NCBI GenBank assembly: GCA_019634795.1
Contig: JAHCAR010000009.1
Location: 82,163-146,162 of the forward strand
Direction: 5' to 3'
Length of the DNA: 64,000 nt
Origin: Dokdonella sp.
GTDB taxonomy: Bacteria; Pseudomonadota; Gammaproteobacteria; Xanthomonadales; Rhodanobacteraceae
Within the stretch, counting starts at the first letter, position 1, and each line of letters starts with the position of its first letter. The notes under the pieces were generated by a model. It was not told where the DNA came from. It searched no databases and saw only the letters and a list, made by a program, of their open reading frames with translations. A program made the position numbers and the translations under genes. Below, one piece after another: positions 13,760 through 47,334 of this stretch.

Positions 13760-14035
13760 TTCAATCCGACTTGGATCAAACGCTGCCCGCCGCGCCCGCA
13801 AGCAGCGGGCCGCCGGCGGATTGTGCGGCGCAGCAGCAGCACCCTGCGCCCAGACCCGGGCGCGAGAAACCCCGCGCAATGTGCTAATTTCGGCCAAACT
13901 GTGACCGGGTTCACACTCCCTGCGTGTTCGAAACCCGGTTTTCGTTGCGATGCGTTGTACGAATATGTGCGGGAACCCGGTGCTAGCATTTGATTCCGCA
14001 GCATCACTACCGGCGCCTGGCGCCACGGAGACACC
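13760..14035 (+). promoter_or_regulatory. Upstream region of the Ser/Thr kinase gene with a perfect CRP/Clp-type box (13900-13915)
   Basis: The 276-bp gap holds TGTGA-CCGGGT-TCACA at 13900-13915, an exact match to the CRP consensus TGTGA-N6-TCACA. The kinase ATG is 120 bp further on. Xanthomonads have the CRP-family regulator Clp with this specificity. A possible -10, GAATAT (13961-13966), would place the box centre about 65 bp before the start of transcription, close to class I activator spacing; the -10 is weak evidence. GGAGA sits before the ATG as ribosome site. Confidence 0.65.
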
Positions 14036-15949
14036 ATGAAAACGCGATTGGGACACTACGACATCGTTGCCGAGCTGGGTCGAGGAGGCATGGGCGTGGT
14101 CTACAAGGGCCACGAGTCCTCACTCAACCGCTATGTCGCCATCAAGGTACTGGCTGATTCGCTCGCCCATGACGAAGGCGTCAAGGAACGCTTCCTGCGC
14201 GAGGCGCGCAGCATGGCCGCGCTCAACGACCCGCACATCATCCAGATCTACTACATCGGAGACGACGAAGGCCAGACCTACTTCGTCATGGAGTTCGTCG
14301 AGGGCGAGTCGCTCGGCACCCTGCTCAAGCGCGAGCACAAGGTAGCGGTCGGTCCGGCCGCGAAGATCATCTACCAGACCGCGATGGGCCTGGCCACGGC
14401 GCACGACAAGGGCGTGATCCATCGCGACATCAAGCCCGGCAACCTGATGGTGTCGAGCCGCGGCTCGATCAAGATCGCCGACTTCGGCATCGCCCTGTCG
14501 AACCAGGACATCTCGAAGAAGCTGACTTCGACCGGCGAATTCGTCGGCACCCCGGGCTATCTGTCGCCCGAGGTCTGCCTCGGCAAGCAGGTCGACCGCC
14601 GCTCCGACATCTTCTCGCTCGGCATCGTGCTGTTCGAGATGCTGGCCGGACGCATGCCGTTCACCGATGAATCGCCACTCGGCCTGATGCTCGAAGTCGT
14701 GCGCGCCGAGATTCCCGACGTGCGTCAGCTCAACGGCGAAGTCGACGAGCAGATCGCCTGGATCCTGTCGAAGATGATCGCCAAGGAGCCGGACGACCGC
14801 TACCAGAGCTGCCACGAACTGGCCGAGGACCTGGCCGCGCATCCGCTGGTCGCCAAGGGTGGCCCGATCACGATCGTGCCGAAGGTTTCTGCCGCCGCAG
14901 CGACCCTGATCGGGCAGAAGACGCCGGTCTCCAATGCCGCCGTCGCGAATACCCGGATCACGCCCTCGGCGCAGCCGATGCCGCCGGCGCATAGCCCCGC
15001 GGCCACGGCTCCGGGCAGCGCGCAGCCAGCCTTCGAGCGCCAGTCCGTGCTCGATCGCCCGACCGATGCCGGCGCCAAGCGCGGCAGTCCGGTGCTGCCG
15101 ATCGCGATCGCCGCGATCCTCGTACTTGGCCTGATCGGCGGCGCCTGGGCTTTCCGCGACAAGATCCCTGGACTCAGCGGTCTTGGCGGCGACAAGGTCG
15201 TGGCCACCGATACGGGCACGACAAAGACCGTCTCGGCGACCGATTCGCCGTCGTCCAATACCCAGAACGTGGCGACCGATCCGGTCGATGCGAGCGCTGC
15301 ATCGAACACCGGCGACAGCACGTCCAGCGGCGATGCACTGGCCGACAACGGTGCCGAGGGCCCGAGTCCGCGTGCCTCGCAGGCCGATGTCGACGCCTTG
15401 CGCGACCTGCCGGCCGCACGCGCCTCGGAAGACGCCCAGGACGGCGTGCCCGTTCCGCGCGCCGACGAGGCGACCGATGTCGCGATGGTGACGCCGAAGA
15501 AGACCGTGACCACGCCGCCGAAACCGCACGTGCCGACCATCGCGGTCGTCGTCGGCGGTGACGACGTGATCACCGAACCGGCCCGTGATGCCATCGTCAG
15601 CCTGCTGCAGCGTCGCGGCTTCCGTGTGATCGAGGCCGGCGAGGCTTCCGGCAGCAAGCCGAACATGGGCTCGCTGCGCGGCCGCGCCGACGCCGTGGTT
15701 TTCGTCCAGGCCAAGCCGGTCGGCTCCCAGCAGCTCAACTACTACGGCCAGAGTTCGACGCTCTACACCGTGCAGATGGGGGTCAAGGCCTATCGCGTTT
15801 CGGACGGCAGCACGCTCTGGAGCAGCGGCATGGAGCAGGTCAACTTCAGCACGCTGAACGCGACCGAGAAGGCCCAGGAAGCAGTCGAACCGCTGCTCGA
15901 TGCGGTCGACAGCAACCTCGACGAGTTCCGTTCGCGCCGCCGCGGTTAG
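14036..15949 (+). CDS. Transmembrane Ser/Thr protein kinase (Hanks type) with periplasmic C-terminal domain
   Basis: A 637-residue eukaryotic-like kinase. Its kinase domain (about 6-275) has the glycine loop LGRGGMGVVYKG, the ATP lysine in YVAIKVLAD, the catalytic loop VIHRDIKPGNL, the DFG motif (IADFGIAL), GTPGYLSPE and RRSDIFSLGIVLFEMLAG, so it should be active. A Pro/Ala-rich linker follows, then one membrane helix (about 353-373, PIAIAAILVLGLIGGAWAF). A Thr/Asp/Ser-rich segment (385-500) and a C-terminal domain (about 510-630) lie outside the membrane. That domain's two-layer pattern (IAVVVGGDD ... FRVIEAGE ... YTVQMGVKAYRVSDG) resembles CsgG/FlgO-like folds. No PASTA repeats are present. 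The gene is single and ends at a strong terminator. Confidence 0.9.
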   Translation: MKTRLGHYDIVAELGRGGMGVVYKGHESSLNRYVAIKVLADSLAHDEGVKERFLREARSMAALNDPHIIQIYYIGDDEGQTYFVMEFVEGESLGTLLKREHKVAVGPAAKIIYQTAMGLATAHDKGVIHRDIKPGNLMVSSRGSIKIADFGIALSNQDISKKLTSTGEFVGTPGYLSPEVCLGKQVDRRSDIFSLGIVLFEMLAGRMPFTDESPLGLMLEVVRAEIPDVRQLNGEVDEQIAWILSKMIAKEPDDRYQSCHELAEDLAAHPLVAKGGPITIVPKVSAAAATLIGQKTPVSNAAVANTRITPSAQPMPPAHSPAATAPGSAQPAFERQSVLDRPTDAGAKRGSPVLPIAIAAILVLGLIGGAWAFRDKIPGLSGLGGDKVVATDTGTTKTVSATDSPSSNTQNVATDPVDASAASNTGDSTSSGDALADNGAEGPSPRASQADVDALRDLPAARASEDAQDGVPVPRADEATDVAMVTPKKTVTTPPKPHVPTIAVVVGGDDVITEPARDAIVSLLQRRGFRVIEAGEASGSKPNMGSLRGRADAVVFVQAKPVGSQQLNYYGQSSTLYTVQMGVKAYRVSDGSTLWSSGMEQVNFSTLNATEKAQEAVEPLLDAVDSNLDEFRSRRRG

Positions 15950-21212: not shown

Positions 21213-23879
21213 GTGAACGCAGGCGTGGCCACCGAAGTCGACCCGCAATCCCTCGCCAGCTCGATGCTGCGTACGCTGGTGCTGTGCGACCTGGTCGACT
21301 CGACCGGCCTCGTCGAGCGCCTCGGTGACCGCGAGGCGGCCGAACTGATCCGCAAGCACGATCGCCTGGCACGCACCCTGGCCGACCGCCACGGCGGCCG
21401 CGAGATCGACAAGACCGACGGCTTCCTGATGATGTTCGAACGCCCGATCCAGGCGGTCGCCTTCGCCCTCGATTACCAGCGCGGCCTGCGCCAGCTCAAT
21501 GCCGCCGAGCAGACCGCCCTCAGTGCCCGGGTCGGCATCCATGTCGGCGATGTCGTGGTCTGGGACAACAGCAGCGAGGACGTGGCCAAGGGCGCCAAGC
21601 CGGTCGAGGTCGAGGGCCTGGTCAAGCCGATCACCTCGCGCCTGATGGGCCTGGCCCTGCCCGGCCAGATCCTGCTCTCTAACATCGCCTACGACCTCGC
21701 CCATCGTGCCCAGGGTGAGCTTGGCGACCTGCTCGAGAGCGTGCGCTGGCGTACCCACGGGCGTTACCGCTTCCGTGGCGTGCCCGATCCGGTGGCCGTG
21801 TTCGAAGTCGGCGAGGAAGGCCTGGCCCCGCTCAAGGCGCCGCCGTGGTCGAGCAAGGCGCATCGCGAGGTGCCGTTCTGGCGGCGCCCGGCGACCGTGG
21901 TCATCGAGGCCCTGGTCGTGGCCGCCCTGATCGCCGTGCCGATCGTGATGTTCCTGAGGCCGGACCCGGCCATCGCCTTCGCCAACCGCGACTGGGTCGT
22001 GGTCGGCAGCCTGCACAACCTGACCGGCGAGACGGTCTTCGACGATGCGCTCGAAAGCGCCCTGCGCATCGGCCTGGAGCAGTCGCGCTACGTCAACGTG
22101 ATGCCCGACCTGAAGGTCCGCGACACGGTCACGCGCATGCAGCGCGATCCGGACAAGACCGAGATCGACCGCGCGGTCGGCTCCGAAGTGGCGATCCGCG
22201 ACGGCGCCAAGGCCCTGATCCTGCCGACCATCGCCGAGATCGGCGGACGCGTGCGCATCACCGCCGAGGTGATCGACCCGCAGACCCAGACCACGGTCTA
22301 CTCCGAGACCGCCGACGGCATCGGCAAGGAATCGATCCTGCCCTCGCTCGACACGATCAACAGTCGACTGCGCGTGCGTCTCGGCGAGGCCCTGGCCACG
22401 GTATCCAAGGAATCGATGCCGCTGGAGAAGGTGGCGACGAAAAATATCGACGCCTTGAAAGCCTATTCGTTAGCCGTCGAGGCGATCGATGCCGGCGACC
22501 GGGAGCAGACGACCGTCCTCTTGCGCAATGCCATCGCATTGGACAGCGGCTTTTCACGGGCGCGCATCGAGTTGGCCAATTCGCTCCTCATTGGCGGAGA
22601 ACGCAAGGAAGCCCGGATGCAATTGGAGACGGCGCTCGAAGCGAGTGATCGGCTGGGGACCCGCGATCGATTCATGGCCGAGGCGCTGCTGGCTGACTTC
22701 ACTTCTCCCCGACTCTCCCTGCGGAAATGGAAGGCGCTTGCAGACTCCTATCCGGATTTCTTCCAGGCGCAAGGGTCCTACGGCTACTTTGCCTGGACCT
22801 ATGCCAATGACTTCCAGGAAGCGATCATCGCCACGCGAAGGAATGCCGTGGTGCAGAACCCCCATGCCGGCGTCGGACACTATCTTCTCGGCACCTTGCT
22901 GACCGGGGTCGGCAAGTACGCAGAAGCCGAGAATGAATTCGACCAAGCCGAGCGGCTCGGAACGCGCTTCCAGAACACCTATCTTGGTGCGTCCTGGGCC
23001 GCCCAGCGCCGGTTCGACAAGATGCGCGACGTACTGGATCGGGGCCGAAGCAGCGACACTCCGGTGGATCGCTTGACCACGCGTATTTTCCAGATGGCGT
23101 TTGCCCTCGACGAGGGCGACTGGCAGGCACTGCGATCGATGCTGGGCAATGAAGACCATGCACGCCCCGAACTGGATGCGGACCAGGAGAACATGCTGCG
23201 GGATGCCGAGGTCAGCGCGTCCATGGCCCTGGAATCCGATGCAAGGCCCATCTTTCAGCGCGATCGCGATGCTACTCCGTCATCCGGCGAGAACGATGAC
23301 GTGTTTTCGCGCAATGCCAGCCTGTTGGTGCGCGCCCTGTTGGCGAGCCGGTCAGGCGACGAGGCCGCGACGACCGCCTTGCTGGCGAGAGTCGACCCCT
23401 CATCGACCAACGGCGATTTCCCCGACCTGCAGAAACTGAATGAACTGGTCGGCGCACAGCGCCTTCTGACCAAGGGAGAAATGCAGGCGGCAGCGACGAA
23501 GCTCGGTCGCCTGATCGATGGCAACGAGCTCAACGCAACCCATCTTCTGCTGATGGACGCCCTCGCCGGCCAAGGCGACTTCGCCGGGGCACGCGAACAG
23601 GCGCGCTGGTTGGCGTCCCATCGCGGCCGGGCCTATGCGCAAGCCAGCGTCAATTTGGCATTCGCCCCGTTCGACGTGGCCCAGTCCAATCTGGCGCTAC
23701 TCTACGATGCGGAGTACTCGGCACGTCTTGGTGAGAACGAAATAGCGCAGGAAAAGCTTGCCGGATTCCTGCGAAACTGGGCGCTGGAGCGAGGCCCGGA
23801 CTGGATCGCAAGCCGGGTAACCGCATTGCGCTCCAGTCTCGAATCGGCGCCGGCCAACGGCCTACCGGCGAAGTCTTAG
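21213..23879 (+). CDS. RiPP-system cyclase-like/TPR transmembrane protein, copy 1 (mod_pep_cyc type)
   Basis: An 888-residue protein. A class III nucleotide cyclase homology domain fills about residues 22-200, with VLCDLVDST (first metal Asp) and IDKTDGFLMMF (Lys and second metal Asp). The later VN-x-AARL-type motif reads VKPITSRLMGLALPGQILLS, keeping the Arg but not the usual Asn. One membrane helix (about 230-250, VVIEALVVAALIAVPIVMFL) follows. Next come a TolB/FlgO-like extracytoplasmic domain (about 258-400) and a TPR-rich C-terminal half (about 415-880). This matches proteins named putative peptide modification system cyclase. Residues about 27-396 are identical to copy 2; the TPR half is not. 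The stop overlaps the convergent peptide gene by 18 bp. GTG is the start, with AGGGA 6 bp upstream. Confidence 0.85.
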   Translation: MNAGVATEVDPQSLASSMLRTLVLCDLVDSTGLVERLGDREAAELIRKHDRLARTLADRHGGREIDKTDGFLMMFERPIQAVAFALDYQRGLRQLNAAEQTALSARVGIHVGDVVVWDNSSEDVAKGAKPVEVEGLVKPITSRLMGLALPGQILLSNIAYDLAHRAQGELGDLLESVRWRTHGRYRFRGVPDPVAVFEVGEEGLAPLKAPPWSSKAHREVPFWRRPATVVIEALVVAALIAVPIVMFLRPDPAIAFANRDWVVVGSLHNLTGETVFDDALESALRIGLEQSRYVNVMPDLKVRDTVTRMQRDPDKTEIDRAVGSEVAIRDGAKALILPTIAEIGGRVRITAEVIDPQTQTTVYSETADGIGKESILPSLDTINSRLRVRLGEALATVSKESMPLEKVATKNIDALKAYSLAVEAIDAGDREQTTVLLRNAIALDSGFSRARIELANSLLIGGERKEARMQLETALEASDRLGTRDRFMAEALLADFTSPRLSLRKWKALADSYPDFFQAQGSYGYFAWTYANDFQEAIIATRRNAVVQNPHAGVGHYLLGTLLTGVGKYAEAENEFDQAERLGTRFQNTYLGASWAAQRRFDKMRDVLDRGRSSDTPVDRLTTRIFQMAFALDEGDWQALRSMLGNEDHARPELDADQENMLRDAEVSASMALESDARPIFQRDRDATPSSGENDDVFSRNASLLVRALLASRSGDEAATTALLARVDPSSTNGDFPDLQKLNELVGAQRLLTKGEMQAAATKLGRLIDGNELNATHLLLMDALAGQGDFAGAREQARWLASHRGRAYAQASVNLAFAPFDVAQSNLALLYDAEYSARLGENEIAQEKLAGFLRNWALERGPDWIASRVTALRSSLESAPANGLPAKS
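21291..22399 (+). repeat. 1.1-kb direct repeat, copy A (within cyclase 1)
   Basis: This stretch matches 24430-25538 at a constant offset of 3139 bp with only three base differences (21326, 21440 and 22355). All three are synonymous, and over 900 bp in a row are identical. Sequence before codon 27 and after about codon 396 is strongly diverged. The pattern indicates recent recombination or gene conversion limited to the cyclase, membrane helix and middle domain. Confidence 0.95.
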
Positions 23880-24140
23880 GCGCGGTGGTTCCATTGTCAT
23901 GGTTTCGGCAATGATCACCTGATCGAGTTTTTCGGCCGCATCGCCAAAAAGGCTCTTGTCCGCAAGTTCCCTCGGACACAAACACTTTGCATCAAGCCCT
24001 ACGATGGTCTCGGCCGGGATCCCGGCTTTATGCAGGGCCAGTGCAGGTTTGCTCTCGAACAGCGCACGAAACGTATCGTCGCTGCCCAGTTTGCGCAACA
24101 AGGCAACGGCTTGTTCGTTGCTCAACTTCGTATCGGCCAT
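23862..24140 (-). CDS. NHLP-like RiPP precursor peptide 1
   Basis: A 92-residue peptide. The leader-like part, LLRKLGSDDTFRALFESKP then ALHKAGIP, aligns with the second peptide of this locus (LLKKLSTDDEYRARFEKSP, ALREIGVP). The similarity runs through ELADKSLF and AEKLDQ near residue 74. After that the last 18 residues (VIIAETMTMEPPRLRLRR) share nothing with peptide 2 and would be the core. It carries two cysteines in KCLCPREL within the conserved region. This fits the NHLP-related precursor family that accompanies these cyclases. The ATG at 24140 has AGGGGGGAA upstream. The gene faces cyclase 1 tail-to-tail with an 18-bp overlap and is divergent from cyclase 2 (211-bp shared upstream region). 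Confidence 0.8.
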   Translation of the reverse strand: MADTKLSNEQAVALLRKLGSDDTFRALFESKPALALHKAGIPAETIVGLDAKCLCPRELADKSLFGDAAEKLDQVIIAETMTMEPPRLRLRR

Positions 24141-24351
24141 CGGCATTCCCCCCTGAATTCGGTCGAACAGGTCCGCCGCTCCGGATCCTTCTGACCGGGT
24201 CATGACGGAAGTATCGCCAACACATCTTGATTGGCGCAGCGAGTCTAGCGTCGGGATTGCGGCAATGCGAGGACCGGGATTCTGGCAACCGGGGACCATG
24301 CAGCGCAGAATGGGGCGGTTGCTTGTCAGACCAGTCGAGGATTGAGGGACT

Positions 24352-27024
24352 GTGAGCGTTGCCGAGACCCCGGTGGGGGAGTTGGGAGGTCCGACCAGTT
24401 CGCTGCTGCGAACGCTTGTCCTGAGCGATCTGGTCGACTCGACCGGCCTCGTCGAGCGCCTCGGCGACCGCGAGGCGGCCGAACTGATCCGCAAGCACGA
24501 TCGCCTGGCACGCACCCTGGCCGACCGCCACGGCGGCCGCGAGATCGACAAGACCGACGGCTTCCTGATGATGTTCGAGCGCCCGATCCAGGCGGTCGCC
24601 TTCGCCCTCGATTACCAGCGCGGCCTGCGCCAGCTCAATGCCGCCGAGCAGACCGCCCTCAGTGCCCGGGTCGGCATCCATGTCGGCGATGTCGTGGTCT
24701 GGGACAACAGCAGCGAGGACGTGGCCAAGGGCGCCAAGCCGGTCGAGGTCGAGGGCCTGGTCAAGCCGATCACCTCGCGCCTGATGGGCCTGGCCCTGCC
24801 CGGCCAGATCCTGCTCTCTAACATCGCCTACGACCTCGCCCATCGTGCCCAGGGTGAGCTTGGCGACCTGCTCGAGAGCGTGCGCTGGCGTACCCACGGG
24901 CGTTACCGCTTCCGTGGCGTGCCCGATCCGGTGGCCGTGTTCGAAGTCGGCGAGGAAGGCCTGGCCCCGCTCAAGGCGCCGCCGTGGTCGAGCAAGGCGC
25001 ATCGCGAGGTGCCGTTCTGGCGGCGCCCGGCGACCGTGGTCATCGAGGCCCTGGTCGTGGCCGCCCTGATCGCCGTGCCGATCGTGATGTTCCTGAGGCC
25101 GGACCCGGCCATCGCCTTCGCCAACCGCGACTGGGTCGTGGTCGGCAGCCTGCACAACCTGACCGGCGAGACGGTCTTCGACGATGCGCTCGAAAGCGCC
25201 CTGCGCATCGGCCTGGAGCAGTCGCGCTACGTCAACGTGATGCCCGACCTGAAGGTCCGCGACACGGTCACGCGCATGCAGCGCGATCCGGACAAGACCG
25301 AGATCGACCGCGCGGTCGGCTCCGAAGTGGCGATCCGCGACGGCGCCAAGGCCCTGATCCTGCCGACCATCGCCGAGATCGGCGGACGCGTGCGCATCAC
25401 CGCCGAGGTGATCGACCCGCAGACCCAGACCACGGTCTACTCCGAGACCGCCGACGGCATCGGCAAGGAATCGATCCTGCCCTCGCTCGACACCATCAAC
25501 AGTCGACTGCGCGTGCGTCTCGGCGAGGCCCTGGCCACCGTATCAAAGGAATCAATGCCGCTCGAAAAGGTCACCACAACAAAACTCGATGCGTTGAAGG
25601 CCTATTCTCTGGGAATCCTCAACAACGCGCGCGGGCGGTTCAAGGAATCTCTCGCTCTGTATCAGCAAGCTTTGAGCGTCGACCCGGAATTCGCTTCCGC
25701 CACTTTGCGGATTGGCATCATCTACGCGAGCTCAGGAAGAACCGACGAGGCGTCAGCTGAGTTCCGCAAGGCACTGTCGCTGAGCAATCGACTCTCTGCA
25801 CGGGACGTCCTGTACGCAAAGGTCATGCTTTCAACAGTTGAACGCAGGGACGACATTCCCTCCAAATGGGCTGCGCTCGCAAGCACTTACCCCGATTTTT
25901 TCGCCGGCACGGGTGGGTTCGCCTACATCAGTTGGCGCGACGAAAACAGATTTGACCAAGCCGTCGTGTCACTGGCCCAGAATTCGGCTTCCCCCCAAAA
26001 CCCCTCGCGCCTGCCCTCATTGCACTTGCTGGGGATACTGCAGCTTGGGAACGATCGCTTCGACGAAGCACTGAAGGCATTTGGCGAAGGTGAGGCGCGC
26101 GGATTCGTGCGCACCGAATACCACGCTGCCACATTGATGGCCAAACGAGATTTCGAAGGCGCAATCGCCGCACTTGCGCGCTCGCAGGACGCAAGCGCTT
26201 CAGAAAATCCCGTCGTTCGTGGATCACGCATGGCGCTGCACAGCGCACTCCTGGTGGAGCGTGGGGATACGACTCAAGCCCGGAATTTGCTGGCCGATGC
26301 AGACTCGACCGTGCCTGCAGGCAGCGAACTTTACGGTATTTTCAAGACCGCTTCCCTGAGCCTTGGCGCTGATCCCGCTGCTGCCGACCGACCACAGCGG
26401 CTGGAGGATGTTGGAGCGGCTCTCGAGAGTCTTTCGAAGGAGCTCAGGCACGCATCGGCGAGCCGCGCCGACGCCATCGCCGGGCAGATTCTCGTTCTCG
26501 GCTACATCGCCGCTCACCTCGATGACAAATCGCTCGCTCAATCGGCGCTCCGGCTGATCGGCGAGGACGGAGTTCCGGCATACTCGATGCGGCGCAAGTT
26601 GCGTATTGTACTAATGGCGGAAATTGATCGAATTTCCGGACGGCCAGCTGCTGCTATCGAAAATCTTAAAAAGCTATCGGACGATACGGAGCCTTTTGTC
26701 GCTCACGTAGTTTTGCGGAACGCCTATTCATCTGCAGGAATGCCCTCGCTGGCTCTCGATGAAGCCCGCTGGCTTGCGAACCATCGCGGGCGCGCGTATG
26801 CCGAATACTATCCCGGCAATCTGCTGACGGCCTTCAATGTCGAACAATCTAACCTGTCGTTGCTCTATGGGGCCGAGTTCGCCCTGACCATGCATGACTA
26901 TGGTACCGCTCGGGCGATGCTCGACGAATTTCGGAAGGCATGGCCGGATGCCCACAGCCATCCGGTCTACTCCCGGCAAATCAACAGGGTTCAGGAGGGT
27001 TTGCCGGAACCCGGGGCCCCATAG
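24352..27024 (+). CDS. RiPP-system cyclase-like/TPR transmembrane protein, copy 2
   Basis: An 890-residue paralogue of the protein encoded at 21213. The cyclase homology domain, membrane helix and TolB/FlgO-like domain are identical at the protein level over about 370 residues. The first 26 residues and the C-terminal TPR half (about 410-885) differ. The 3' half also has a different base composition, with many A/T-ending codons (for example around 26600-26700), unlike the GC-rich 5' half, which suggests a separate origin. Both copies end with a related motif, LDEARWLANHRGRAYAEYYP here and a similar LASHRGRAYAQ in copy 1. The stop overlaps the convergent precursor peptide 2 gene by 34 bp. The GTG start follows GAGGGA closely. 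Confidence 0.85.
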   Translation: MSVAETPVGELGGPTSSLLRTLVLSDLVDSTGLVERLGDREAAELIRKHDRLARTLADRHGGREIDKTDGFLMMFERPIQAVAFALDYQRGLRQLNAAEQTALSARVGIHVGDVVVWDNSSEDVAKGAKPVEVEGLVKPITSRLMGLALPGQILLSNIAYDLAHRAQGELGDLLESVRWRTHGRYRFRGVPDPVAVFEVGEEGLAPLKAPPWSSKAHREVPFWRRPATVVIEALVVAALIAVPIVMFLRPDPAIAFANRDWVVVGSLHNLTGETVFDDALESALRIGLEQSRYVNVMPDLKVRDTVTRMQRDPDKTEIDRAVGSEVAIRDGAKALILPTIAEIGGRVRITAEVIDPQTQTTVYSETADGIGKESILPSLDTINSRLRVRLGEALATVSKESMPLEKVTTTKLDALKAYSLGILNNARGRFKESLALYQQALSVDPEFASATLRIGIIYASSGRTDEASAEFRKALSLSNRLSARDVLYAKVMLSTVERRDDIPSKWAALASTYPDFFAGTGGFAYISWRDENRFDQAVVSLAQNSASPQNPSRLPSLHLLGILQLGNDRFDEALKAFGEGEARGFVRTEYHAATLMAKRDFEGAIAALARSQDASASENPVVRGSRMALHSALLVERGDTTQARNLLADADSTVPAGSELYGIFKTASLSLGADPAAADRPQRLEDVGAALESLSKELRHASASRADAIAGQILVLGYIAAHLDDKSLAQSALRLIGEDGVPAYSMRRKLRIVLMAEIDRISGRPAAAIENLKKLSDDTEPFVAHVVLRNAYSSAGMPSLALDEARWLANHRGRAYAEYYPGNLLTAFNVEQSNLSLLYGAEFALTMHDYGTARAMLDEFRKAWPDAHSHPVYSRQINRVQEGLPEPGAP
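24430..25538 (+). repeat. 1.1-kb direct repeat, copy B (within cyclase 2)
   Basis: This is the second copy of the 21291-22399 repeat, with three synonymous differences in 1109 bp. Divergence starts abruptly at both edges. The right edge falls at the junction between the middle domain and the TPR half of the protein. Confidence 0.95.
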
Positions 27025-27296
27025 TCGACGCGCAGCATCGGGAAGACCATACATGCGTGACCCAGGAGCGACTCCTGATCGAGCTTCTTGTGCGCGTCGG
27101 CAATGGCGTCCTTGTCCGCAAGCTTTCCTGGTTTCAATGTCGCGGGATCCAAGTCCGCCATGGCAGAGTCGGGCACACCTATCTCCCTCAGCGCATCGGA
27201 TGGGCTCTTCTCGAAGCGAGCTCGATACTCGTCGTCGGTCGACAGCTTCTTGAGCAGATGGAGTTCGTGTTCTTTAGGCAGTCTGGTGGCTTTCAT
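26991..27296 (-). CDS. NHLP-like RiPP precursor peptide 2
   Basis: A 101-residue peptide. It shares the leader pattern of peptide 1: HLLKKLSTDDEYRARFEKSP, ALREIGVP, KLADKDAIADAHKKLDQ (ending near residue 74). The remaining 27 residues are different and would be the core: ESLLGHACMVFPMLRVD then a Gly/Pro-rich YGAPGSGKPS end. A single Cys is present, inside this variable part. AGGGGAA precedes the ATG at 27296. The gene overlaps the 3' end of cyclase 2 by 34 bp in the opposite orientation and is divergent from the maturation dehydrogenase (182-bp gap). No cleavage motif such as GG or GA is obvious at the leader border. Confidence 0.8.
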   Translation of the reverse strand: MKATRLPKEHELHLLKKLSTDDEYRARFEKSPSDALREIGVPDSAMADLDPATLKPGKLADKDAIADAHKKLDQESLLGHACMVFPMLRVDYGAPGSGKPS

Positions 27297-27400
27297 GTTT
27301 CGTTCCCCTGTCTTGAGTGGAATTGTGTTCAGGCATTCCTGGCCCGAAGAACACAGGTCCAGACGATCTTGCTTGCTGGATTACGGGTATCCCGACGCTT

Positions 27401-27429
27401 TTGGCATCGACAATTCGCCCTTGTGATAT
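27401..27429 (+). promoter_or_regulatory. Sigma-70-type promoter of the peptide maturation dehydrogenase
   Basis: TTGGCA (27401-27406) and TGATAT (27424-27429) are separated by exactly 17 bp. Transcription would start near 27436, about 43 bp before the dehydrogenase ATG. It lies in the 182-bp region shared with the divergent peptide 2 gene. Confidence 0.6.
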
Positions 27430-27478
27430 GGCCCCCGCACTGCGTAGGCTAGCAGAAGTTTTGTTTCGGAAGCGCTCC

Positions 27479-28672
27479 ATGCAGGTACGTCGTTGTGCCG
27501 TGGTTTTCATCGAACCACGGGAACGCCTGGATTTTGATCTGGCCAGACTGGTTTCCGGCAGCACCGGTGTCGAGATGGTTCTCGAATGGATCGCGCTGGC
27601 GGCGCATCTGGATGACGAGGTGCTGCTCGATGTGGACGAGATGCAGGCCCTTGGACGGGTATCTCCGGAGACGTGGGTTGCCTTCGACTCGATGGGCGAC
27701 GAGGCCTATCTGCAGGTCCTGCGAAACCTTTTGGACAAGGGTCTGCTGATCACCGATGCCGGGACCCATGCCGATGTTCGACGCCGCGACGAAGACGTGC
27801 GGGCAAGCCACTGGCGAGGCATCTCGGCCACACTGCACCGGCATACGCGCTGGCAGGGTGTCGATACGCTCGAAGCCGAGCAGCGTTTCGGCCGTGAAAG
27901 CGACCGCCCGTTTCTCGATCGCCTCGGCGCGCCCGAAACCCCGGTTCGCGAACGCGTCGAACCGGGCCGGCGTGTCGCGCTTGGCAAGCCGGCCGACAGC
28001 GGACTCGAGGCGCTGATCCGGCAACGCGTCACCTGCCGAAACTGGGATATCTCGCGGCCGCTCCCGGCCGAGGATTTCGCCACGACGCTGTACCGGACGT
28101 TCGGCGCTCGCGCGACCAGCGACGAGCCGGGCATCACGGTCATGAAGCGCGCCGTACCGTCGGCTGGCGGCCTGCATCCGACCGAGGCCTACCTGCTCGT
28201 GCAGAATGTCGAAGGCGTCCAACCGGGCCTGTACCACTATCACCCGATCGATCATGCGCTCGAGCCGCTGGGCCAGGTTGCCGCCGAAGACAGCCAGGCC
28301 TTGGCCCTGCGTCTCGTCGCCGGCCAGCGCCATTTCATGAAGGCGCATGTCGTGGTCGTGCTGGCCAGCCGCTTCCGCAGGACATTCTGGAAGTACCGCA
28401 ACCACGCCAAGGCCTATCGCGCGGTAATCCTCGATGCCGGGCATCTGTCGCAGACCCTATATCTCGCCGCCGCCGAGCGCGGCCTCGCTGCATTCATTAC
28501 CGCCGCCGTCAACGAGCGTGACATCGAGGAGATCTTCGGCCTCGATCCGATGCTCGAGGGCGTGCTCGCGGTCAGCGGATTCGGCTGGCGTGGCGAGCTC
28601 GTCGATGAAATCGAGTTCGACCCGCTTGGCAGTGTGTGGTCGAATGGCGGTGGCATGAAGAAGGTCGTATAG
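27479..28672 (+). CDS. Putative peptide maturation dehydrogenase, SagB-type
   Basis: A 397-residue protein. The C-terminal two thirds (about 170-390) are an FMN-dependent nitroreductase/SagB-type oxidoreductase: RQRVTCRNWD (substrate/FMN Arg region), AVPSAGGLHPTEAYLLVQNV, GLYHYHPIDHALEPLG and ILDAGHLSQTLYLAAAERGL are the classic blocks. SagB-type enzymes oxidise azolines to azoles in peptide natural products. The N-terminal about 160 residues are predicted helical and unrelated to SagB, and may bind the leader. It matches the dehydrogenases that accompany NHLP-type peptides and the cyclase-like proteins. No YcaO cyclodehydratase is encoded nearby. The ATG at 27479 has CGGAAG upstream and a good promoter. 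Confidence 0.85.
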   Translation: MQVRRCAVVFIEPRERLDFDLARLVSGSTGVEMVLEWIALAAHLDDEVLLDVDEMQALGRVSPETWVAFDSMGDEAYLQVLRNLLDKGLLITDAGTHADVRRRDEDVRASHWRGISATLHRHTRWQGVDTLEAEQRFGRESDRPFLDRLGAPETPVRERVEPGRRVALGKPADSGLEALIRQRVTCRNWDISRPLPAEDFATTLYRTFGARATSDEPGITVMKRAVPSAGGLHPTEAYLLVQNVEGVQPGLYHYHPIDHALEPLGQVAAEDSQALALRLVAGQRHFMKAHVVVVLASRFRRTFWKYRNHAKAYRAVILDAGHLSQTLYLAAAERGLAAFITAAVNERDIEEIFGLDPMLEGVLAVSGFGWRGELVDEIEFDPLGSVWSNGGGMKKVV

Positions 28673-42435: not shown

Positions 42436-44631
42436 ATGACGCAGCGTCAGCCAGCTTCGGAATTCCGCTACTGGGCTTTCATCAGCTACAGCCACAAGGA
42501 CAAATCCTGGGGGCGCTGGCTGCACAAGGCCCTGGAGACCTATCGCGTCCCGAAGCGCCTGCAGGGCATGCCGACCGCTGCCGGCCGTGTTCCGGCTCGA
42601 CTGACCCCGATCTTCCGTGACCGCGACGAACTGCCGACCGCCAGCAACCTCGGCACCGCCATCGAGGAGGCCCTGCGCCAGTCCTGGTGCCTGATCGTCA
42701 TCTGCTCTCCCGATGCCGCGCAATCGCGCTGGGTCAACGAGGAAGTGCTGGCCTTCCAGCGCCTCGGCCGCGGCAACCGCATCCACTGCCTGATCGTCGA
42801 TTCGGGTGACGACGCGGCGGCGCCGCTGGCCTTCCCTCCGGCACTGGGCGAGCGCGAGGAAGCCGAAGGCAACCGCAGCGGCGAACCGATCGCGGCCGAT
42901 GCGCGACGCTTCGGTGACGGCCGGACCGGCGCAAAGCTCAAGCTGATCGCTGGCATCCTCGGCATCGGCTACGACACCCTGGTCCAGCGCGAGCAGCAGC
43001 GCCGCCATCGTAACTTGCTAGCCGTGACCTGTGCGTCGCTGGCCCTGGTCGTCGTGCTCGCCGCCGCCACCGTGATCGCGATCACCTCGCGGCGCGATGC
43101 CGTGGACCAGCGCACGCATGCCGAGAGCCTGGTCGAATTCATGATCGGCGACCTGCGCAAGAAGCTCGAACCGGACGGCAAGCTGGCTACCCTCGATGCG
43201 GTCGGCAAGGAAGCCCTCGCCTACTATGCCTCGCAGAAGTCGCAAGATCTCGATGCCGACGGTCTCGCCCGCCGTGCCCGCGCCCTGCACATGATCGGCG
43301 AAGTCTACGACCTGCGCGGCGAACTCGATGAAGCCCTCAAGGTTTTCGAACAGGCTGCCGACAGCACCGCTGAACTCGTTGCACGCGAGCCCGACAACGG
43401 TCAGCGCATTTTTGACCACGCACAGAGCGTGTTCTGGGTCGGCTACATTGCCTATCAGCGTGGCAACGTCACCGTTGCCGAGCCAGCGTTCCTCGAATAC
43501 AAGCGGCTCACGGAGCGCCTGGTAGCCATCGACCCAAGCAACGACGATTGGCAGGCCGAACTTGGTTATGCGAATAGCAACCTCGGTACGTTGCTCTATG
43601 AACAGGGTCGGCTCGACGAGGCAGCCAACATCTACTCATCGGAACTCGACACTGCGAAAAGGATGGGCCAAGAAGATCAGGAGACATACGATCGGCAGGT
43701 GAGGATCGCGCAAGCCTATGCGCGCCTGGCCAACATTTTCTATGTTCAGGGAAGATTGCGCGAGTCTGCTGATTTTCGACAGAGCGAAGGCAAAATATAT
43801 GAAGAAGCCATCCGCAAGAATCCCAACAACAATGATGCAAAAGAAGCACTTTCGATTAATCAGCGTAGTTTGGGTCGCATCTTGCTCGATCTCGGTGACT
43901 TGACCTCGGCGACAGTCAAATTCGAACGTGCTGAGAAACTCGCGGCGACCTTGTTCGCCACCGATCCGGACAATGCGAACTGGGTCGATAGCGCCGTGGC
44001 TGCGCAAACTAGTTTGGCTGAAGCATTGACCTTCGCAAACCAGATCCACCCCGCGATCGGAATGAGCGCAAATGCGCGCAAGCTCGCGGAAGAGCTCGTA
44101 GCGAGGGATCCGACTGTCACTGCATGGCAGCTGCGCTGGTTGAACGTGCTCTTGCTCCAGGCAAGGCAAAGGCTGGAGTTCGGCTCTTCAGACGAAGCGC
44201 TTCGCTTGGCCACAGACATCGTGAATAGGGTTGACGGACTTCCTCAAGGAAAGCTTCGCGACTGGGAGCGCACCAATGTTTTGGTACAGGCTCTTGTTCT
44301 CGTTGGCGAGGCCGGCGCTCGCTCCGGGGAAATCACTAATGCCGAAATGGCTTGGGACAGAGTCCTCGAAGTCTTGGACGGAGGCGTCGAGGCACAAATT
44401 CCCAAGAACCTGGCAGCGCGTGCTCTTGCACTCTCCGCGTTGGGAAGAGGCAAGCGGGCAATCACCGCCATCGAGTCACTTCGAAAAATCGGATATCGCG
44501 AATACACGTATCTGGAAGCATTAAGTCAAGTTGCGGGAACGACCAGCCTTATGGATTCCCACAGTGTTGGCGCTAGTGTGGTAGACTCACGACACAAGAT
44601 GAAGGGGATACGAACATGGCGAACGACGTAA
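42436..44631 (+). CDS. Membrane-anchored TIR-domain protein with TPR-like C-terminus
   Basis: A 731-residue protein. The TIR domain (about 8-130) starts FRYWAFISYSHKDKSWGRWL, has the BB-loop region LTPIFRDRDELPTASNL, and carries SRWVNEEVLAFQRLG with the Glu position used for NAD+ cleavage in active TIRs. A membrane helix (about 193-213, LLAVTCASLALVVVLAAATV) follows. The rest (about 230-710) is helical TPR-like repeats, for example LYEQGRLDEAANIYSSELD and LANIFYVQGRLRESADF. The ATG at 42436 puts the TIR fold near the start. Base composition drops in the 3' part (from about 43500), as in cyclase 2, suggesting mosaic origin. Whether the role is signalling or antiphage is unknown. Confidence 0.85.
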   Translation: MTQRQPASEFRYWAFISYSHKDKSWGRWLHKALETYRVPKRLQGMPTAAGRVPARLTPIFRDRDELPTASNLGTAIEEALRQSWCLIVICSPDAAQSRWVNEEVLAFQRLGRGNRIHCLIVDSGDDAAAPLAFPPALGEREEAEGNRSGEPIAADARRFGDGRTGAKLKLIAGILGIGYDTLVQREQQRRHRNLLAVTCASLALVVVLAAATVIAITSRRDAVDQRTHAESLVEFMIGDLRKKLEPDGKLATLDAVGKEALAYYASQKSQDLDADGLARRARALHMIGEVYDLRGELDEALKVFEQAADSTAELVAREPDNGQRIFDHAQSVFWVGYIAYQRGNVTVAEPAFLEYKRLTERLVAIDPSNDDWQAELGYANSNLGTLLYEQGRLDEAANIYSSELDTAKRMGQEDQETYDRQVRIAQAYARLANIFYVQGRLRESADFRQSEGKIYEEAIRKNPNNNDAKEALSINQRSLGRILLDLGDLTSATVKFERAEKLAATLFATDPDNANWVDSAVAAQTSLAEALTFANQIHPAIGMSANARKLAEELVARDPTVTAWQLRWLNVLLLQARQRLEFGSSDEALRLATDIVNRVDGLPQGKLRDWERTNVLVQALVLVGEAGARSGEITNAEMAWDRVLEVLDGGVEAQIPKNLAARALALSALGRGKRAITAIESLRKIGYREYTYLEALSQVAGTTSLMDSHSVGASVVDSRHKMKGIRTWRTT

Positions 44632-45196
44632 ATATCAACGTTTCTGTATGGCTCAAGGAGCCTGGCAAGCCGCCGGAGAACACCGATTCGTTCAAGAACG
44701 TGATTTTGGCTTCAAGAGCGTAGCCCACACTGCCTTGGGTGTCGTTTTGCACAAGGACGGCACGAATCGATATCAGCGACGCTGCTAACAGACTCGATAT
44801 CAAGTTCTACCTTGAGACAAAGTTGCTAGCCGACGAGCAGGGAAGCATCTGTACGGACTATGGCGTCAGTTTCAAACCGGTTGTTGTAGCGCACCGTACC
44901 AGACAAGTGCAAGGCAGCTGATGTGGATTGCGCCAGGCGAAAATCCGCCGATGGGGAGAATGGCCATCAACCTCGGGGTTCTCAAGCTTCAAGCACAACG
45001 TCTATGGTGACGAGTCGAGCATGTCGGTCTCGATAAATAGGAAAAGGTTAACCGCTGAGACCTATTCGTACAGTCTCGCCGTGTTTCGCAACAGACACCA
45101 AAGGCGGAAAAGCCGGCGCACTAGTTCGAGATGACCCGCAAATCAAGAATGGAACGACGCATCATTTCTTTCCACCCTACCTCCTGCCGGGTCTGC
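44616..45196 (+). pseudogene. Frameshifted remnant of a small protein gene after the TIR-TPR gene
   Basis: An ATG at 44616, overlapping the TIR gene end and preceded by AAGGGGA, begins MANDVNINVSVWLKEPGK and stops after 35 residues. Coding-like sequence then continues in changing frames: DFGFKSVAHTALGVVLHKDG (from 44702), ISDAANRLDIKFYLETKLLA (from about 44745), SSFKHNVYGDESSMSVSINR (from about 44974) and TDTKGGKAGALVRDDPQIKN (from about 45091). Together these would make one protein of about 190 residues with at least four frame changes or stops. I read it as a decayed gene; sequencing errors are an alternative. No family is recognised. The rest, to 45378, shows nothing convincing. Confidence 0.45.
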
Positions 45197-45382
45197 TTCT
45201 TGGCATCGTACTGGGGCCTTGGGCACCGCGGTCCTGTGTTGCTGCGCGACAGAAATCGATCGCGCCCCGCCTGGGCCGCACACACCTTGCTCCAAGCCCA
45301 TTTCAGTCGATCCGCCGGCCCGCACGATTCACTCGAGGCGCGAGAGCAAGAGGTCCGAAGCCAGGTTGGGGTGAGCGCCTAG

Positions 45383-45666
45383 GGAGGCTCTGAACAAGTG
45401 GCGCAATCGTCATGGCGTTCAGAAGGCTCGCCACAGGTGCTGCGTGGCGAAGTGAAGGCTGGTTGCCTTGACGAGCCGCGTGGTGCCTGTGGCGGGCCTT
45501 CTGGACGCCACCCTTGTTCCATTGAATCAATTGCTTGGGCGACGCCTGCCTGCGCGCAGCTCTTTGTTGCGCCGACTTGAAAGACGGCCAGTCTGTCTGC
45601 GTCGGCGCGCCGCGATCTGCACGCAGGCAGTCGTCGTGACGGTTGTGCCACTTGTTCAGAGCCTCC
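45383..45666. mobile_element. 284-bp MITE or relic IS with GGAGGCTCTGAACAAGTGGC inverted ends and CTAG duplication
   Basis: The left end GGAGGCTCTGAACAAGTGGC (45383-45402) returns as its exact reverse complement at 45647-45666. Weaker pairing continues for about 15 bp (GCAATCGTCA against ACAACCGTCA). CTAG flanks both sides (45379-45382 and 45667-45670), matching the YTAR target duplication of IS5-family elements. There is no transposase frame, so it is non-autonomous. The right CTAG supplies the TAG stop of ubiA. Confidence 0.85.
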
Positions 45667-47334
45667 CTAGCGAATCGCCAGCGCCAGCAGCAGGCCTATC
45701 CACAACACGCAGCCCACCCAGTTGTTGTTGCGGAAGGCGGCGAAGCAGGCTTCGCGTTCGCGCTTGCGGATGATCCATTGCTGCCAGCCGAACAGCGCCG
45801 CGGCGATCGCGAGTCCGGCGAAGTAGGGCCAGACCAGCTCGGCGCGCGTGCCGGCGAGGAGCATGGCGAACAGGAAGGTGGCCATGAGGATGCCGATGAT
45901 CGGGCGGTCGGCGTCGGCGAACAGGATCGCCGTGGACTTGGCGCCGACGCGGATATCGTCCTCACGGTCGACCATCGCGTACTCGGTGTCGTAGATGGTC
46001 GAAAACAGCACGTTGGCGAGGAACAGCAGCCAGGCCAGGGCCGGCACCCCTCCGGTGACGGCGGCGAAGGCCATCGGGATCGACCAGCCGAACGCGGCAC
46101 CGAGGACGACCTGGGCCAGGTGCGTATAGCGCTTGCAAAATGGATAGACCGCCGCAAGGGCGGCACCGGCGAACGAAAGCTTGATGGTCAGCGCATTGGT
46201 GAACAGGACCAGCACGAAGGCGAAGGCGAGCAGGCCGAGAAAGAGCAGGATCGCCTCGCGTCGGGATACCCGCCCCGCCGCCATCGGTCGACCACGCGTG
46301 CGCTCGACATGCGCGTCGAGCCAGGCGTGGTCGGCATAGTCGTTGATCACGCAACCGGCCGATCGCATGACAAAGACGCCGAGCGTGAAGATGACCAGCG
46401 CGCCGATCGGCGGAAAATCGTTGGCGGCGAACCAGAGTCCCCACCAGGTCGGCCAAAGCAGCAGCAGGGCGCCGACCGGGCGATCCAGGCGCATCAGCAC
46501 GAGGTATTGGCGGATGCGTTCGCGCCACGGCTCGCGCAGATGGTCGGTCAACCATTCGATCACGCGCATCGAGCGCGTCGAGGCGTCGGCCGGATGCGGT
46601 TGCGTAGGCATGGCGGCGTGCTTGCGGCCCGGTTTTGCGGGGACACTTGCTGACGGGACCGCTTCGACAGCCCAGGGCGGTGGTGCGGCCTGCGCTTCCC
46701 GACCACTGGCCGAGACCGATTGGGTCGGTTTTGGCCTGGAGTCCTCGTCGGAGCCGTACGTCGCTGCAGGGCTTGGCGCGCGTCGGACCGGCGGTGCCGC
46801 CGAAGTGGACCTGTCGGTTGGACGCATCCCGGTGTAGGCCGGATCCCGCAGCGAAGGCTCGACAGCAGGTGGCCGGGCGCGCGTCTGCTCCGCGCGCGCC
46901 TGCAATGGCGCTTCGCTGCGGGGGGTCGACTGCCGCGCAAGGATTTCCGATTCTGCGGGTGGCTCGGCGGTGGAAGCGGAAGCGGAGACTGGAGGCCTGG
47001 CTCGACCCGGTGGCGATGCACTTGGGCGCGTGGCGACCGTTCGCCTGGTCGCCGCAGGCGACCCGTTGCCGGACAGCTCCGGCTTGTCAGGCGCGGCCTT
47101 GGCCGGTTCGCGTGTTGCTGCCCGTTCCGGCTCCGCGGATGTTTTCGGCACGACGCGGCGCGGCGTCGCCCGCGCTCGCGGCAAGGGCGCCTGCTCGCCG
47201 GTGCTGCCCTCGTCCGCGACGCTCTTGCGTGCTGCAGTCTTGCGCGGTGCCGGTGGTGAGTCGGGCGCGCTCGTAGAGGGCGAGCGCGGTCGCCTGCGGG
47301 GTGGATCGCTCGGGGGTGGAGGCGTGTCGCTCAT
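45667..47334 (-). CDS. ubiA: 4-Hydroxybenzoate polyprenyltransferase (UbiA) with a long disordered N-terminus
   Basis: The C-terminal about 290 residues are UbiA, the membrane enzyme that prenylates 4-hydroxybenzoate in ubiquinone synthesis. RLDRPVGALLLLWPTWWGLW precedes the first Asp motif in CVINDYADHAWLDAHV (N-D-x-x-D). The second is in IYDTEYAMVDREDDIRVG. Nine hydrophobic helices follow the family pattern. The frame extends about 255 residues upstream from the enzyme as a Pro/Ala/Arg-rich, low-complexity stretch starting MSDTPPPPSDPP (ATG 47334). Ordinary UbiA starts near MPTQPHPADAST (ATG 46611) or MRVIEWLTDHL. Whether the extension is translated is uncertain. The stop codon lies in the CTAG duplicated by the MITE. 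Confidence 0.85.
   Translation of the reverse strand: MSDTPPPPSDPPRRRPRSPSTSAPDSPPAPRKTAARKSVADEGSTGEQAPLPRARATPRRVVPKTSAEPERAATREPAKAAPDKPELSGNGSPAATRRTVATRPSASPPGRARPPVSASASTAEPPAESEILARQSTPRSEAPLQARAEQTRARPPAVEPSLRDPAYTGMRPTDRSTSAAPPVRRAPSPAATYGSDEDSRPKPTQSVSASGREAQAAPPPWAVEAVPSASVPAKPGRKHAAMPTQPHPADASTRSMRVIEWLTDHLREPWRERIRQYLVLMRLDRPVGALLLLWPTWWGLWFAANDFPPIGALVIFTLGVFVMRSAGCVINDYADHAWLDAHVERTRGRPMAAGRVSRREAILLFLGLLAFAFVLVLFTNALTIKLSFAGAALAAVYPFCKRYTHLAQVVLGAAFGWSIPMAFAAVTGGVPALAWLLFLANVLFSTIYDTEYAMVDREDDIRVGAKSTAILFADADRPIIGILMATFLFAMLLAGTRAELVWPYFAGLAIAAALFGWQQWIIRKREREACFAAFRNNNWVGCVLWIGLLLALAIR

Follow-up and report, generated by a model that had tools for sequence, protein, structure and literature searches.

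A Dokdonella locus of TIGR04510 nucleotide cyclases, precursor-like peptides and a SagB-type dehydrogenase as a candidate ligand-and-receptor half of a cyclic GMP pathway

Introduction

What does a nucleotide cyclase do beside a small precursor-like peptide and a SagB-type flavin dehydrogenase? The question is raised by a five-gene locus in a stretch of 64,000 nucleotides from Dokdonella sp. (assembly GCA_019634795.1, contig JAHCAR010000009.1, positions 82,163 to 146,162), hereafter called the window. The locus, which holds two cyclases (cyc1 and cyc2), two peptides (pep1 and pep2) and one SagB gene, had been described in a sequence-only reading of the window as a peptide modification system of families TIGR04509, TIGR04510 and TIGR04511 that lacks a YcaO partner, with the cyclases counted among the maturation proteins. 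In this report, we find that the families, their co-occurrence and the absence of YcaO hold, and that a cluster for maturing a natural product is a less apt description than a peptide ligand with its receptor. We prefer the latter because the cyclase has a conserved neighbor, a cyclic-nucleotide-monophosphate (cNMP)-binding domain fused to a GGDEF domain, and because the layout is that of the XC_0250/XC_0249 pathway of Xanthomonas campestris.

Results

Four gene families travel together

All five genes lie where that reading had placed them, and their products exceed the curated NCBIfam cut-offs (400 bits for TIGR04510, 34 for TIGR04509 and 240 for TIGR04511), scores that bear out the family names. 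Among 147 genomes of the window's bacterial family (26 genera), SagB (TIGR04511) occurs in 45, the cyclase over its cut-off in 47, the peptide over its cut-off in 46 and the cNMP-GGDEF protein, at E<=1e-60, in 50. SagB is accompanied by the cyclase in 44 genomes and by the peptide in 44, cyclase and peptide coincide in 45, and all 45 SagB genomes have the cNMP-GGDEF protein. Pairwise Fisher p values for the four families run from 1e-32 to 1e-35; the co-occurrence of the three named families, which had been put forward as a check, is thus far beyond chance. The exceptions are genomes G059, G079, G128 and G132, whose partial matches seem to lie at or near contig positions where neighbors may be cut off. 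In a second sample of 198 Xanthomonadaceae-type genomes, SagB is found in 119 and the cNMP-GGDEF protein in 116, with both in 108 (p 2e-32). Outside these groups the genes are rare in thin class and phylum samples (cyclase in 5 of 369, SagB in 8 of 398). We are confident that the locus forms one functional module.

Apart from the window's own genome, 44 genomes of the family have SagB. Regions of up to 20 kb around SagB were collected from 40 of these and from 80 of the 119 in the second sample, which with the window makes 121 loci; 16 mostly low-scoring SagB regions were left out, so that divergent members are under-represented. Profiles built from the window proteins recover 134 SagB proteins; cyclases number 132, spread over 120 loci, and peptides 169, with all 121 loci represented. 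A forward cyclase, a reverse peptide and a forward SagB gene make up 84 of the 121 loci, a count that depends on the loci having been selected for SagB; nine more have one extra peptide, and four (the window and loci L106, L111 and L113) have the tandem cyclase-peptide units of the window.

The cyclase resembles that of a published cyclic GMP pathway

The gene before the cyclase encodes the cNMP-GGDEF protein, as judged by neighbor clustering and domain scans; in 105 of 121 loci it shares the strand of the cyclase and lies no more than 1.5 kb upstream. In the passages of An et al. 2013 (PMC3770947) drawn on here, XC_0250 is a class III cyclase with a tetratricopeptide repeat (TPR) domain, encoded beside the cNMP-binding GGDEF protein XC_0249; the two form a pathway from cyclic GMP (cGMP) to cyclic di-GMP (c-di-GMP), and both affect biofilm and virulence. 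The key residues given there for XC_0250 (D41, D71, L73, A150, L157 and A161) recur by spacing at six of six positions in the Xanthomonas cyclases of loci L040 and L042, where the GGDEF gene, the peptide and SagB are arranged in the same order, and at five of six in the window cyclases, which have F for L73. Compared by these published residues and their spacing rather than by its own sequence, XC_0250 almost certainly belongs to TIGR04510.

The account of the cyclase in the sequence-only reading was incomplete: this is a nucleotide cyclase with a conserved cNMP-GGDEF neighbor. A peptide-cyclizing "cyclase" was rejected, as the family, Pfam and residue matches are those of a nucleotide cyclase. 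Pfam finds TPR_19 in cyc1, with Guanylate_cyc weak and below its gathering score, and several TPR models over their gathering scores in cyc2. An inactive pseudo-cyclase, suggested by the low Pfam score and the altered state of the usual Asn and Arg, was dropped because XC_0250, which has the same pattern, is reported to be active on GTP (PMC3770947, same passages).

For the 129 cyclases whose cyclase domain is complete, a simple Kyte-Doolittle scan predicts one transmembrane (TM) span in 113, two in 14 and none in two. Lysine and arginine are more frequent before the span than after it in 123 of 127. Given the single span and this charge bias, the cyclase domain is expected in the cytoplasm and the TPR domain in the periplasm. 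For the cNMP domain of the GGDEF protein, the best match in the PDB is the 129-residue chain 5h5o; the structure entry for XC_0249 in the same paper is 4KG1. At the diad N145-E146 of XC_0249, 106 proteins carry NE in 67 cases, SE in 35 and GE in four. With SE in 35 of 106, nucleotide preference may differ between lineages.

The TPR domain and the peptide switch together

Of 122 sets of cyclase, peptide and SagB, 105 have the GGDEF gene next to them and a cyclase domain that is complete, and these entered the distance statistics; the window and the other tandem loci of Dokdonella type thus stand outside the distance, triple and break statistics. Cyclase-domain distances track the GGDEF protein (r 0.88). 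TPR distances correlate at 0.64 with SagB, at 0.52 with the peptide and at 0.35 with the cyclase domain of the same protein, and the partial correlations are 0.27 for peptide and TPR, 0.22 for peptide and cyclase domain and 0.475 for TPR and SagB. As the partial correlations are weak alone, discordant triples and trees were also used.

In 78 close pairs (cyclase domain at least 90% and GGDEF protein at least 75% identical), median identity is.88 for the GGDEF protein,.95 for the cyclase domain and.85 for the TolB-like region that follows the TM helix, vs.41 for the TPR domain,.58 for the peptide leader and.43 for the peptide core; SagB has.61 in its first part and.83 in its catalytic part. When TPR classes are drawn at 50% identity, 13 of 19 groups of close loci contain two or more of them. 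Loci L167 and L168 illustrate the pattern in DNA: for 7.4 kb, ending midway through the cyclase gene, their identity is 94.8%; the next 2.5 kb, which run through the peptide into SagB, are unrelated; and the following 10 kb are similar again, at 88%. In 48 such pairs, the point where similarity is lost within the cyclase has a median of residue 419 (range 294-566); in SagB it returns around residue 10 (median; range -11 to 281), except in one pair, which has no match there.

Among 42132 ordered triples there are 367 in which the TPR domain is at odds with the phylogeny that the GGDEF protein and the cyclase domain give; a count with strict thresholds gave 158 discordant triples. Triples and pairs are not independent, with 35 distinct first members. 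Where the TPR domain is discordant, the peptide is too in 343 of 367 (93%), vs 8436 of 41765 (20%) otherwise. The TolB-like region follows the TPR domain in 204 of 367 (56% vs 8%). Trees of 33 loci agree: groups X (96) and Y (99), which have support in the cyclase-domain tree, are broken up in the TPR tree, and the TPR data reject holding them together in approximately unbiased (AU) tests (p-AU 7e-74 for X and 0.0035 for Y). These tests used quick trees with long branches, and the p values are post hoc because the groups were chosen by cyclase-domain similarity and already known to hold several TPR classes. A rejection for group U is not counted because U is not one clade in the cyclase-domain tree (two changes); groups V and W are each kept whole by the TPR tree, and a tree of the peptides by themselves has weak resolution. 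By its TPR domain, L167 (genus code g494) falls with L130 and L137 (g502), and the peptides of these three loci share THTVVHCFEAGSV, an identical 13-residue core stretch, whereas the sister of L167, L168, has a peptide of the HNPHCFEA type. Such linked polymorphism above a conserved output is what pherotype systems show, here between species, with one genome per species.

Two cassettes in tandem in the window

Over their first 1.2 kb, cyc1 and cyc2 are 97.9% identical in DNA, with a perfect run of 914 bases. The identity extends from just past the start codon to about residue 418, which equals the median break of the 48 inter-genome pairs, and there is no DNA similarity beyond. The first parts of the proteins are correspondingly 96-98% identical, vs 27% for the last part. 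When the TPR domains of the other tandem loci are compared with those of the window, like positions share 39-40% (cyc1 type) and 43-55% (cyc2 type), and unlike positions 27-31%; the closer kinship of like positions indicates that the window holds two old cassettes. The N-terminal halves were apparently made alike, by gene conversion or unequal recombination, and the single SagB presumably serves both units.

Base composition follows the same division. Within window positions 22469-27296, G+C is 0.59-0.63 in the TPR parts and 0.56-0.59 in the peptides, vs 0.68 in the cyclase-domain halves; across 105 loci it lies below that of the cyclase domain for the TPR domain in 93 and for the peptide in 103. 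Selection on the reading frame of the peptide is purifying: the ratio of nonsynonymous to synonymous polymorphism (pN/pS) is 0.24, pooled over 27 close pairs that are not fully independent.

SagB and the chemistry of the peptide

In the PDB, the SagB profile matches CyaGox 5lq4, 8pz5 (a SagB-type dehydrogenase), BmdC and McbC. YcaO is found in four of the 147 genomes, none of them SagB-positive (E<=1e-8); the suggestion that a YcaO partner might lie elsewhere in the genome thus fails. Peptide cores often have no conserved Cys, Ser or Thr (44 of the 169 peptides fit none of the simple patterns tried as core motif classes), which together with the absence of YcaO makes azoles unlikely. In the parts of the PflD report drawn on (PMC12636437), its nitroreductase domain makes Z-dehydrophenylalanine without YcaO, and its authors suggest that relatives yield other dehydroamino acids. 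This is a precedent for oxidation by a dehydrogenase with no YcaO, one of the options raised in the sequence-only reading. By analogy, dehydroamino acid formation would be the most likely reaction type for SagB, a choice that we make tentatively. No ATP-grasp ligase, as found with a SagB-like nitroreductase in graspetides (PMC8939145), is among the ten window proteins between 19264 and 32409. The only PDB match of the peptide profile, nitrile hydratase, is non-significant (E 0.28), and pep2 has a weak match, below cut-off, to NF038399 (Os1348 NHLP clan).

Gene arrangement and surroundings

The coordinates are collected in Table 1. The peptides had been said to sit at the 3' ends of the cyclases; that position is right, and the orientation is corrected here, as each is antiparallel to its cyclase, tail to tail, and overlaps the cyclase 3' end (by 18 bases for pep1/cyc1 and 34 for pep2/cyc2). 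pep2 is also head to head with SagB. The start of SagB is most likely the ATG at 27479, not the GTG at 27317, according to a family alignment of the window and 13 relatives (14 sequences); the nearest named relative is that of D. immobilis, at 89%. Besides pep1, the genome holds a second TIGR04509 copy over cut-off.

Table 1. Features of the locus in window coordinates
Feature	Position	Strand	Score or basis
cyc1, TIGR04510 nucleotide cyclase, 888 aa (in order: cyclase domain, one TM helix, TolB-like region, TPR domain)	21213..23879	+	836.2 bits to TIGR04510
Near-identical, putatively homogenized tract in cyc1 (cyclase domain, TM, TolB-like region)	21256..22468	+	DNA comparison
Putative specificity cassette 1 (TPR domain of cyc1 and pep1)	22469..24140
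pep1, TIGR04509 precursor-like peptide, 92 aa	23862..24140	-	59.7 bits
cyc2, TIGR04510 nucleotide cyclase, 890 aa	24352..27024	+	838.2 bits
Near-identical, putatively homogenized tract in cyc2	24395..25607	+	DNA comparison with cyc1
Putative specificity cassette 2 (TPR domain of cyc2 and pep2)	25608..27296
pep2, TIGR04509 precursor-like peptide, 101 aa	26991..27296	-	58.9 bits
Gap of 182 bases between pep2 and SagB, which start divergently; possible common regulatory region	27297..27478
SagB-type flavin dehydrogenase, TIGR04511, 397 aa	27479..28672	+	484 bits (longer open reading frame scored)

Other loci vary the plan. Locus L201 (genome G909) is an expanded array of about ten or more peptides and several SagB genes, and L200 is likewise expanded; L182 has five near-identical tandem peptides of 80 aa, and L147 four peptides in a row. 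In L122-L126 the layout is reversed, with SagB and peptide forward and the cyclase facing them, and the peptides are shorter and more divergent. Elsewhere in the window, a PknB-type Ser/Thr kinase lies a few kb from the locus (13994-15949; NF033483 at 318 bits, cut-off 450), and G+C drops to 0.585 at 44001-46000, vs about 0.66 for the window.

Discussion

We propose that the locus is the ligand-and-receptor half of a cGMP pathway of the XC_0250/XC_0249 type. SagB would oxidize the precursor peptide without YcaO, our guess being an alpha,beta-dehydrogenation in the C-terminal core. The mature peptide would reach the periplasm and bind the TPR domain of the single-span cyclase, binding would change the cGMP output of that enzyme, and the cNMP-GGDEF protein would convert the cGMP signal to c-di-GMP, with outputs of the biofilm type. 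The TPR domain and the peptide would constitute an exchangeable specificity cassette, with the first half of SagB sometimes traveling along, and the window would carry two such cassettes in tandem on near-identical cyclase modules with one common SagB. Leaving the guessed chemistry aside, we regard this proposal as somewhat favored. On its separate parts, the peptide is likely the ligand of the TPR domain, and it is possible, though a little short of an even chance, that it is a secreted signal between cells.

Several observations weigh against this proposal. Physical linkage alone could make TPR domain and peptide switch together; the results therefore demonstrate a cassette, not binding. SagB follows the TPR domain in only about half of the discordant triples (first part 196 of 367, 53% vs 9%; catalytic part 158 of 367, 43% vs 8%). 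In the window itself, the cNMP-GGDEF gene is not adjacent; the genome has one unlinked copy (G000:C48:90073-91017; 402.7 bits, 60% identity, GGDEF motif intact), and this protein (L207) has S for N145 of the cGMP-contacting N145-E146. Of the 198 genomes, 11 have SagB without the GGDEF protein and eight the converse, at the thresholds used. The peptides have no obvious signal peptide, there is no conserved exporter or protease among the immediate neighbors, and locus L043 of Duganella rivi (21 kb) has peptide and SagB with no cyclase found. Finally, in the passages of An et al. used here (PMC3770947), the cyclase domain alone restored biofilm in the mutant, which makes the TPR part dispensable for output.

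Some of these points would suit a peptide that stays in the cell or is no ligand, so that peptide and SagB would be a separate redox or sensing unit sharing the locus. The Duganella rivi locus and the lack of a visible export route speak for it, and the co-occurrence with the cyclase and the joint switching of peptide and TPR domain (343 of 367) speak against it; we judge it unlikely. The Duganella locus also indicates that peptide and SagB homologs exist outside Lysobacterales, perhaps with another receptor. Slightly less probable still is an antimicrobial or other natural product of the class of ribosomally synthesized and post-translationally modified peptides (RiPPs), matured by SagB, with the TPR domain as an immunity or regulatory sensor and the polymorphism as a toxin-immunity arms race. 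The NCBIfam name of the TIGR04509 precursor family carries "RiPP", the SagB profile matches azoline oxidases of known RiPPs, and alleles shared across clades might also fit toxin-immunity pairs; but no transporter, protease or second modifying enzyme is among the immediate neighbors, YcaO is absent, and the conserved partner is a second-messenger cascade.

A cyclase with a cNMP-binding effector also resembles the logic of Pycsar, and PycC gives a weak match (25.2 bits), the only such match, to the cNMP domain of the GGDEF protein. An anti-phage or conflict system of the Pycsar or CBASS kind is nevertheless very improbable: PADLOC models find nothing at E<=0.01 in the cyclases, the peptides or SagB, their partner is a diguanylate cyclase and no killing effector, and the chromosomal neighborhood is stable, with an isocitrate-lyase-like gene as upstream neighbor in 60 of 110 cases. 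We give equally little credence to a C-terminal half that is merely fast-evolving, with no specificity or exchange. TPR repeats do tolerate change, and TPR identity is low between most loci. Yet fast evolution cannot bring distant genomes closer than near ones, as the strict discordant triples and the AU rejections require, nor does it account for the core stretch that L167 shares with loci of another genus code and not with L168; it is already contradicted unless the trees are long-branch artefacts.

The ligand-and-receptor proposal can be set beside known systems. With XC_0250/XC_0249, as described in the passages of PMC3770947 drawn on, the locus shares the class III cyclase with its TPR domain, the cNMP-GGDEF neighbor and the spacing of key residues. 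New elements here are the peptide, SagB and a sensor half that is polymorphic, and the window differs further in its two cyclases and its unlinked GGDEF partner with S for N145. The searched passages of that paper contain no mention of "peptide", XC_0251 or XC_0252, and no link of the pathway to a peptide or SagB was found in open-licence literature; the TPR domain is termed uncharacterized there, and still so in the parts used of a 2019 review (PMC8042644). All five window proteins are members of the predicted peptide modification system of TIGR04509, TIGR04510 and TIGR04511, whose NCBIfam names give no pathway or ligand role; in open-licence literature, the terms of these names matched only a different system.

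In plan, the locus is also like ComQXPA of Bacillus (PMC4008528, in part), which combines a modifying enzyme, a precursor with a variable C-terminus, a receptor with variable sensor and conserved output, and a conserved downstream regulator. It differs in that the receptor here is a Gram-negative guanylate cyclase with a predicted periplasmic TPR domain, the enzyme is a SagB-type dehydrogenase, and communication is putative. PflD (PMC12636437, in the parts drawn on) likewise pairs a nitroreductase-family enzyme with a RiPP precursor and no YcaO, but it is fused to an MNIO domain in a cluster that has other enzymes and no cyclase. The YcaO-dependent azol(in)e RiPPs (TOMMs) do not match, as neither the window genome nor the other 44 SagB-positive genomes of the 147 has YcaO. 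The agr system of Staphylococcus has the same parts as ComQXPA: a modifying enzyme, a variable precursor, a receptor and a regulator. In animals, the natriuretic-peptide receptor guanylate cyclases have an outer ligand domain, one TM span and an inner guanylate cyclase, a similar working plan for which no homology is claimed; the sensor fold here is TPR.

In its boldest form, which we advance only tentatively, the proposal describes a Gram-negative pheromone: a single-span receptor guanylate cyclase would read an oxidized ribosomal peptide through its periplasmic TPR domain, and pherotype alleles that recur across genera would decide whose cGMP to c-di-GMP cascade responds. An orphan predicted RiPP locus is thereby tied to a published second-messenger pathway, with the adjacent peptide as its candidate signal, and a RiPP-type ligand with pheromone-like specificity polymorphism is proposed in Lysobacterales. 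The question of what this guanylate cyclase senses thus becomes directly testable.

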